A stretch of 52,250 nucleotides of DNA from a candidate division CPR2 bacterium GW2011_GWC2_39_10 (GTDB lineage: Bacteria; Patescibacteriota; CPR2): positions 1-52,250 of the forward strand of contig LBVV01000007.1 in NCBI GenBank assembly GCA_000993275.1, in the 5' to 3' direction. This document shows, piece by piece, positions 11,775 to 26,874 of the stretch. A model generated the notes under the pieces. That model did not search any database. It worked only from the letters and a program-made list of their open reading frames with translations, and was not told where the DNA came from. Positions within the stretch are counted from its first letter, which is position 1. Every line of letters begins with the position of its first letter. The translations under genes were made by a program, and so were the position numbers.

Positions 11775-11858
11775 TGGTGCCGGGAGAGGGACTCGAACCC
11801 TCAAGCCTTGCGGCACACGATTTTGAGTCGTGCGTGTTTGCCATTTCACCACCCCGGC
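11775..11858 (-). tRNA. tRNA-Leu (CAA), CCA encoded
   Basis: Reverse complement GCCGGGGTGGTGAAATGG...CACGA-CTCAAAA-TCGTG...GGTTCGAGTCCCTCTCCCGGCACCA. Confidence 0.93.
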
Positions 11859-26138: not shown

Positions 26139-26267
26139 ATTTCCATAATTTGACTACGAAACGTCTATCAGTCAGTCTTGAAAAATATCAGAATTTCCTT
26201 TAAGATGTGTATGTCTTAATTTGTAATTTCTGTTGTTTCCTGTTAACTGGTTCCTGTTTCCTGATCA

Positions 26268-26325
26268 TGGGGAGTCGCCAAGCGGCCCGTCTCGACTAGG
26301 CGTCGAGCCGAGGTGGATAAGGCAC
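26268..26325 (+). pseudogene. 5' tRNA-Gln fragment (duplicate) interrupted by a palindromic insert
   Basis: TGGGGAGTCGCCAAGCGG and AAGGCAC are identical to 26586-26613; separated by about 30 nt containing CTCGAC-taggc-GTCGAG. Confidence 0.7.
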
Positions 26326-26338
26326 CAACAAAATTTTT

Positions 26339-26581
26339 ATGAAAGCTTATGTCTATTTACTAATCAGCTTCAAAGATCAGGAAACTTATCTTGGTTCTAC
26401 AAATGATCTTGGCAGGAGGATTTCTGAACATAACTCAGGAAAATGCAAATCAACAAAGCAAAGAGGACCATTAAAATTAATTTATTCTGAAGAATATGAT
26501 AATATTGAAGATGCCAGAGTAAGAGAAAAATATTTAAAAACAAAAAACGGAAGAAAAGAATTATCAAATATCTTTAATTAA
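26339..26581 (+). CDS. Small GIY-YIG nuclease (UPF0213-like)
   Basis: VYLLISFKDQETYLGSTNDLGRRISEHNSG. Confidence 0.88.
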   Translation: MKAYVYLLISFKDQETYLGSTNDLGRRISEHNSGKCKSTKQRGPLKLIYSEEYDNIEDARVREKYLKTKNGRKELSNIFN

Positions 26582-26585
26582 GCTT

Positions 26586-26659
26586 TGGGGAGTCGCCAAG
26601 CGGTAAGGCACTGGGTTCTGGTCCCAGCATCGGGGGTTCGAATCCCTCCTCCCCAGCCA
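26586..26659 (+). tRNA. tRNA-Gln (CTG), CCA encoded
   Basis: TGGGGAG/CTCCCCA acceptor; CTGGG-TTCTGGT-CCCAG anticodon arm; GGTTCGAATCC. Confidence 0.92.
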
Positions 26660-26811: not shown

Positions 26812-26874
26812 TGCGGTGAGAATCTCGCCCTACGGGTGATCGGCCGAAGGCCGGCCTCCTCCCTAGCCATAGTT
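26812..26874. repeat. Two-hairpin intergenic repeat, copy 1
   Basis: GCGGTGAGAATCTCGCCCT...GATCGGCCGAAGGCCGGCCTCCTCCCTAGCCAT. Confidence 0.5.

Follow-up and report, generated by a model that had tools for sequence, protein, structure and literature searches.

The locus examined here raises a simple question: how did an intact tRNA-Gln gene come to lie behind a broken copy of its own 5' part, with a single small nuclease gene in between? It is found in what we will call the window, namely the whole stretch of 52,250 nucleotides analysed from the candidate division CPR2 bacterium GW2011_GWC2_39_10 (Patescibacteriota; contig LBVV01000007.1, positions 1 to 52,250). On balance, we lean towards the reading that this is a minimal homing-like mobile element, free of integrase, which parasitizes tRNA genes via nuclease-triggered repair. 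We will examine in turn the locus itself, its relatives, the part that moves and the way in which this may occur.

The tRNA-Gln locus

The locus is composed of the following parts:

26230 to 26267, + strand: native tRNA-Gln leader/promoter region, which resembles the tRNA-Gln leader of the sister genome G001 (locus L019)
26268 to 26285, + strand: A, the remnant copy of tRNA-Gln nt 1-18 (18/18 identical to 26586-26603)
26286 to 26317, + strand: h, a GC-rich, hairpin-forming insert of 32 nt within the D-loop of the remnant
26318 to 26325, + strand: B1, the continuation of the remnant, TAAGGCAC, tRNA-Gln nt 19-26 (identical to 26604-26611)
26339 to 26581, + strand: GIY-YIG nuclease ORF of 80 aa, catalytic domain only (PF01541, E=1e-16, residues 2-72)
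26586 to 26659, + strand: intact tRNA-Gln(CTG), probably the regenerated copy (ARAGORN; Rfam RF00005, 59.3 bits)
26855 to 26869, + strand: 15-nt tRNA-Gln 3' remnant, CCTCCTCCCTAGCCA (14/15 match to the tRNA 3' end)

The core of the preliminary description, a GIY-YIG ORF lying between a 5' fragment of tRNA-Gln and the intact gene, is confirmed by ARAGORN, Rfam and PF01541. The fragment at 26268-26325 is real as well, but its 58-nt span is not a contiguous copy: immediately behind G18G19, the D-loop holds an insert of 32 nt, which the preliminary description does not mention. The identity was said to end at the start of the anticodon stem, which is roughly right here (the last copied position is nt 26) but does not hold throughout the family, some loci having a copy that extends to the anticodon loop or the T-stem. 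A 13-nt spacer separates B1 from the ORF, whose stop codon ends 4 nt 5' of the intact tRNA. The ORF is the sole gene between the remnant and the tRNA, and no integrase is found inside the element.

The repeat that carries the ORF is that of the tRNA 5' half (we will speak of a 5'-type locus), and the 15-nt 3' remnant, which the preliminary description had missed, lies 195 nt downstream of the intact gene, an equally good match being obtained in 0 of 2000 shuffles. The exact match of the 18 nt of A scores 18, against a shuffled maximum of 11.5, and the same design is found in dozens of loci, so that the arrangement is not due to chance. In the window locus, neither a group I nor a group II intron is matched at E<=1, and the tRNA-Gln is uninterrupted; a Y1 HUH transposase is absent, the only protein of the element being the GIY-YIG domain, and so is a reverse transcriptase joined to GIY-YIG (a Penelope-like trait), the coding part being limited to the 80-aa ORF. 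No remnant was found beside the other tRNA of the window (Leu, 11775-11858).

Empty sites and other copies in the same genome

The tRNA-Gln genes of G001 (same genus, L019) and G002 (same family, L020) both lie behind gltX with their leader directly attached, and they have no fragment, no insert and no ORF. The G001 gene is syntenic with that of the window, behind gltX and an ORF of 131-137 aa, and the hypothetical ORF upstream of tRNA-Gln is also conserved in this genome. The leader found at 26230-26267 is, in the empty sister site, directly 5' of the intact tRNA-Gln. Relatives devoid of the ORF are thus also devoid of the fragment, in line with the preliminary description.

The same genome contains a second case, at tRNA-Glu(CTC) (C7:52358-52692), on the same contig and just past the end of the window; its downstream flank matches G001, whose site is empty (L176). 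A third case, at tRNA-Asn(GTT), has the same design, which makes three independent cases in one genome. Four more small GIY-YIG genes are present there, none of which adjoins a tRNA; by sequence inspection, they belong to a GTLYIGVT-type subfamily. A sibling-genome search for the empty sites of the G081 and G088 loci gave one match, which lay beside tRNA-Gly, for a query locus at tRNA-Thr.

The empty sites of sister genomes, together with the recurrence of the design across many separate assemblies, rule out chance or an artefact. The element is present or absent at orthologous tRNA genes, on the strand of the tRNA, and its mobility is well supported. The proposal that this is a small integrase-free mobile element, sparing the function of the tRNA by duplicating its 5' part, is supported, and the locus behaves as such.

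Association with tRNA genes across relatives

The connection to tRNA genes was followed in 190 distinct related ORFs, most of which belong to the same phylum (Patescibacteriota). Within 300 nt, a same-strand tRNA or tmRNA was found for 112/190 and an opposite-strand one for 2/190. The tRNA begins at most 60 nt after the ORF stop, or overlaps it, in 71/190 cases, in which the stop codon is often supplied by the TAG of the tRNA at nt 8-10; it lies within 160 nt upstream of the ORF in 31/190, and a further 10/190 have a same-strand tRNA or tmRNA within 300 nt. The 190 ORFs were chosen by their similarity to tRNA-associated members, which biases the rate of association but leaves unaffected both the 112:2 strand ratio and the contrast with the GTLYIGVT subfamily, which is of similar size, comes from the same genomes and has 0/10 members near tRNAs (Fisher p=9e-5). 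The homologs of the GIY-YIG ORF are thus strongly associated with tRNAs, as the preliminary description had supposed. For 76/190 ORFs (about 40%), no tRNA was detected nearby, which counts against the homing-like reading, and some of these are undercounts: L057 and L063, where the element is 5' of a tRNA-Asn with an apparent group I intron, a kind of tRNA that ARAGORN misses, and L089, where the gene is that of the RNase P RNA.

The association extends to the Bacteroidetes. Among 40 ORFs sampled from the class of one MAG, 18 are near a same-strand tRNA or tmRNA and 0 are near an opposite-strand one only, and the hairpin-split cognate remnant is again frequent. In L256 (Bacteroidetes MAG G134), about 3 GIY-YIG ORFs are found in tandem behind a single tRNA-Pro, and a 3' tRNA remnant comes after at least the first ORF of the array. 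Genes for tmRNA, too, have such GIY-YIG ORFs next to them (L083, L133, L151, L270 and L286).

One could imagine that the 5' ends of tRNA genes are a general insertion hot-spot, where some other machinery, such as a trans-acting tyrosine integrase, has deposited the GIY-YIG gene as a mere passenger and where the fragments are ordinary att remnants. Indeed, tRNA genes are common integration sites, the partial copies left there by integrase elements are well known (PMC9897764), and 3' remnants are also found beside tRNAs that have no GIY-YIG gene. However, unlike the elements of tyrosine integrases, the insert has no integrase, measures about 300 nt and carries a palindrome inside the partial copy. 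What is duplicated here is the 5' half (the 3' half in the mirror form described below), over a variable length that is set by the place of the hairpin. Moreover, one gene family dominates, always on the strand of the tRNA, and the related GTLYIGVT subfamily has no tRNA association. We thus regard the hot-spot explanation as very improbable and keep to that of a homing-like element.

The remnant and its hairpin

In the family, the 5' part of the tRNA (A) is followed by the insert (h), the continuation of the tRNA (B1) and the ORF, so that an intact tRNA stands on one side and, at most loci, a partial copy of this tRNA, split by the hairpin, on the other. Wherever a tRNA lies downstream of an ORF, the remnant was sought in two segments, with that tRNA and other isotypes as references. 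The cognate tRNA was the best fit in 52/71 cases, and by more than 3 points in 42/71, compared to 12/87 and 8/87, respectively, for control tRNAs (p=1e-11).

The insert is generally structured: 31/47 confident inserts fold better than at least 59/60 shuffles, and strong hairpins reach 13.4 per kb in the remnants, against 0.36 per kb in the window. The inserts are located in the D-, anticodon or T-loop in 37/47 cases (26.6 expected), and most of the others are at nt 12/13, at the edge of the D-loop; the T-loop cases (L127, L050, L115, L246) are split as TTCG, h, CG, with a 2-nt repeat. The insert of the window, when considered alone, folds weakly better than its shuffles (z -1.26), so the case for a hairpin rests on the family. 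A pattern search of 380 genomes found no copy of this hairpin outside the locus. It has a counterpart in L168, from a Moraniibacteriota MAG of another collection, whose plan is identical to that of the window (tRNA nt 1-18, hairpin, tRNA nt 19-26, ORF, tRNA) and whose hairpin has the same position and the same stem, CCGTCTCG..CGAGGCGG versus CCGTCTCG..CGAGGTGG in the window (common form CCGTCTCG..CGAGGYGG).

Several inserts are common to different tRNAs and genomes (Thr L225, Lys L061 and Ile L223; Lys L127 and Gly L188; several Asn), and paired changes preserve their pairing, as in L053 (TCGTCC/GGACGA) versus L236 (TCAGCC/GGCTGA). In most elements, these palindromes sit at the broken junction, where they might be recognized by the nuclease, as the ends of a REP/RAYT or IS200/605 element would be.

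The preliminary description had placed a fixed target at the boundary of the D-arm and the anticodon stem. This is not supported, since the split point varies even among sister elements with the same target: the hairpin is found at nt 12 or 38 in tRNA-Ser and at nt 34 or 12 in tRNA-Cys. On the protein tree, hairpin positions are not clustered (19 changes versus 20.7 when shuffled, 36/200). Thus, the hairpin is not simply the mark of a cut site, which counts against the homing-like reading, and its use as an exact cut-site marker is not supported on the protein tree.

Other arrangements of the same parts were observed. In L142 (G081), upstream of tRNA-Pro(CGG), there are two tandem ORF-less copies of a unit made of the tRNA-Pro 5' part, the hairpin TCCGTCAGCTGACGGA and a spacer. 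In L043:1380-1650, which has no ORF, an intact tRNA-Gln is nested in a split hairpin: a near-complete 5' remnant ends with CCCTGTCACC, and the 3' remnant is preceded by GTGACAGGG. In L089:1480-2388 (G038), a long hairpin (CCCCCCACTTTCT..AGAAAGTGGGGGG) within the gene of the RNase P RNA carries the GIY-YIG ORF in its loop, and the same RNA has further hairpin-bounded inserts. Finally, L086, L096 and L115 have paired hairpins with complementary loops, e.g. CCACGTAGGG and CCCTACGTGG. They come directly after the CCA end of the tRNA in L086, and L096 and L115 have them inside the remnant; these are possible kissing loops.

Such hairpins bring us to the main rival of the homing-like cycle, namely a single-strand transposition driven by palindromes, in which the hairpins would be the ends of the element, as in REP/RAYT or IS200/605. 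The GIY-YIG nuclease would then process hairpins or extruded tRNA-gene loops during replication, and tRNA genes would be chosen because their DNA folds. This is what one might read in the sharing of hairpins between elements of different tRNAs and genomes, in the compensatory changes that keep their structure, in the splits in or at the edge of tRNA loops, in the match of the protein profile to the structure-specific SLX1 and in the loci L089 (ORF in a hairpin loop), L043 (tRNA in a split hairpin) and L142 (tandem ORF-less hairpin copies). However, GIY-YIG enzymes hydrolyse DNA with no covalent strand-transfer intermediate, so that joining would still require repair by the host. Moreover, elements usually have a hairpin at only one of their two sides, and no constant target sequence was found. 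Such a transposition appears rather doubtful to us, and the homing-like element is still the reading that we prefer.

What moves and what is duplicated

The comparison of L127 (tRNA-Lys) with L188 (tRNA-Gly) gives the limits of the mobile unit. Their DNA is similar from the very start of the insert onwards, across B1 and the ORF, and the two tRNA copies found at a locus both belong to its own host. The mobile unit is thus made of the insert, B1 and the ORF, in other words a palindromic hairpin with a GIY-YIG ORF of about 80 aa, and the 5' part of the tRNA is duplicated locally. In agreement with such local copying, the duplication often goes past nt 1 of the tRNA into the upstream flank (at least 15 nt in L126, 10 in L222, 9 in L235, 7 in L186 and 6 in L138), with a mean of 2.82 contiguous nt versus 0.72 when permuted (maximum 1.53 in 2000 permutations). 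At the tRNA-Gln locus of the window, no upstream-flank match remains. The preliminary description had left the choice between an element carrying the tRNA 5' end and one duplicating it: duplication is favored, and a carried, donor-derived 5' half is disfavored by L127/L188 and by the flank duplication.

A mirror form also exists (3'-type loci), in which the intact tRNA is followed by the ORF and then by a remnant that keeps the 3' part and the hairpin, as at tRNA-Pro in L125. This form is less well characterized, since a cognate remnant was found in only 9/26 of the 3'-type loci of the phylum sample; in the Bacteroidetes MAG, it is found at tRNA-Pro, His, Leu and Pro. In both forms, the outer half of the broken copy is kept and the half facing the ORF is trimmed; this outer half is the one that would be required if a break in the intact gene were mended through homology.

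These forms also bear on the idea that the remnant is under selection as a cis-regulatory RNA. In an otherwise settled and partly domesticated gene, it would act as a pseudo-tRNA leader that controls either GIY-YIG expression or how the tRNA downstream is processed. The conserved pairing of the hairpin would fit with it, as would the start of the ORF a few nt past the remnant, its stop codon often taken from the tRNA and the presence of all parts on the tRNA strand. It accords poorly, however, with the presence and absence of the element between sister genomes, with mirror-image elements whose remnant is downstream of the ORF, with the many different tRNAs involved and with the hairpin-bearing remnants that have no ORF. 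We consider a regulatory leader unlikely and return to the homing-like element.

The GIY-YIG protein

The predicted GIY-YIG fold is unambiguous by profile. The protein profile is nearest to UPF0213, then to SLX1 and I-TevI, and the closest solved structures are those of UPF0213/small GIY-YIG proteins (1zg2, E=1.7e-15, and 1ywl). Unlike the present elements, the GTLYIGVT subfamily of small GIY-YIG proteins is not associated with tRNAs. Residues Y6, Y17, G19, R27, H31 and E63 are invariant among 13 tRNA-associated relatives. The domain occupies residues 2-72 of the 80 aa, which leaves no room for a second, DNA-binding domain. This counts against the homing-like reading, for nothing beyond the catalytic fold accounts for sequence specificity.

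The nearest relatives outside the genus are those of L049, from another family of the same class, and of L168, at 59% and 64% identity, both directly 5' of tRNA-Gln. More generally, the target tRNAs cluster on the protein tree (45 changes versus 53.9 when shuffled, 0/200 shuffles), in which Asn, Ser, Glu, Thr and Gly clades are supported and switches of target are also present.

A putative cycle and its known counterparts

In the homing-like cycle, the substrate of the nuclease would be a tRNA gene without interruption, or the single-stranded form extruded from it, and the cut would fall in a loop or close to one; the hairpin and the ORF would then be copied into the break by repair. The tRNA half on the ORF side would be re-synthesized from the target itself, thereby regenerating an intact tRNA, and the outer half of the broken copy would serve as a conserved homology arm for further moves. 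The hairpin may stop the split copy from being recut or from working as a tRNA. The remaining intact copy would also have to be protected: the adjacent intact tRNA should itself be a target, which counts against this reading.

The nearest parallel is SegB of T-even phages, a free-standing GIY-YIG homing endonuclease encoded beside phage tRNA genes and reported to cut within tRNA-containing sequence, driving the amplification of a tRNA-Tyr segment by means of a short homology that the 3' end of segB shares with the 5' region of the tRNA (PMC13096335). As with SegB, the enzyme of the window is encoded beside a tRNA and outside any intron. It shares with free-standing GIY-YIG homing endonucleases the catalytic Tyr, Tyr, Gly, Arg, His and Glu, as well as a place beside its target that is empty in relatives, but, unlike them, it has no separate DNA-binding region for a long recognition site. 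In the CPR, the insertion sequences of rRNA genes can encode GIY-YIG proteins, are not group I or II introns and are often located at the tops or bases of stem-loops; they were judged sparse and outside homing, tRNA being unmentioned (PMC11270868). They have in common with the present elements the bacterial group and GIY-YIG ORFs in structured RNA genes, but they are located inside rRNA, whereas those described here are at tRNA genes. None of these systems (SegB, CPR rRNA insertions and integrase elements) has this anatomy, and we found no description of tRNA-linked GIY-YIG elements of this kind in the open-licence PMC literature, the sole scope of our search.

Patescibacteria and Bacteroidota have small GIY-YIG genes in abundance, usually listed as nucleases of unknown role. 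Here, those associated with tRNAs are tied to a repeatable anatomy (intact tRNA, ORF, hairpin-split copy), which gives them a testable role as tRNA parasites and accounts for the pseudo-tRNA fragments and palindromes found beside tRNA genes in reduced genomes. At about 300 nt, this is perhaps the smallest known mobile unit that enters an essential gene and yet preserves it, and its recurrence at many tRNA genes, in ultra-small bacteria and Bacteroidetes, points to minimal selfish elements of a class that has drawn little attention. It also raises the concrete question of how a catalytic domain of 80 aa finds one tRNA gene. More tentatively, these could form a distinct, cross-phylum class of transposable elements, possible rather than probable at this stage, whose only protein is a bare GIY-YIG domain and which would insert hairpin-first into the loops of structured-RNA genes (tRNA, tmRNA, RNase P RNA), with a variable local target duplication rebuilding the intact copy; they would do so with no integrase, transposase, intron or reverse transcriptase, their specificity coming from folded DNA or RNA and not from a DNA-binding domain.

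Group I introns in tRNA genes are also small mobile elements found in tRNA loops; unlike there, the tRNA is here duplicated in part and not interrupted. One such intron, devoid of ORF (RF00028), was observed in the tRNA-Asn(GTT) of G001 (L179:896-1160). In the same genome, an insertion of about 114 nt comes after the tRNA-Gln, along with 19 nt copied from the 3' end of this tRNA (L019:1501-1707); G002 (L020) is without this insertion and has the same flank past it. Remnants of this 3' kind also lie 70-180 nt downstream of several tRNAs that have no GIY-YIG gene.
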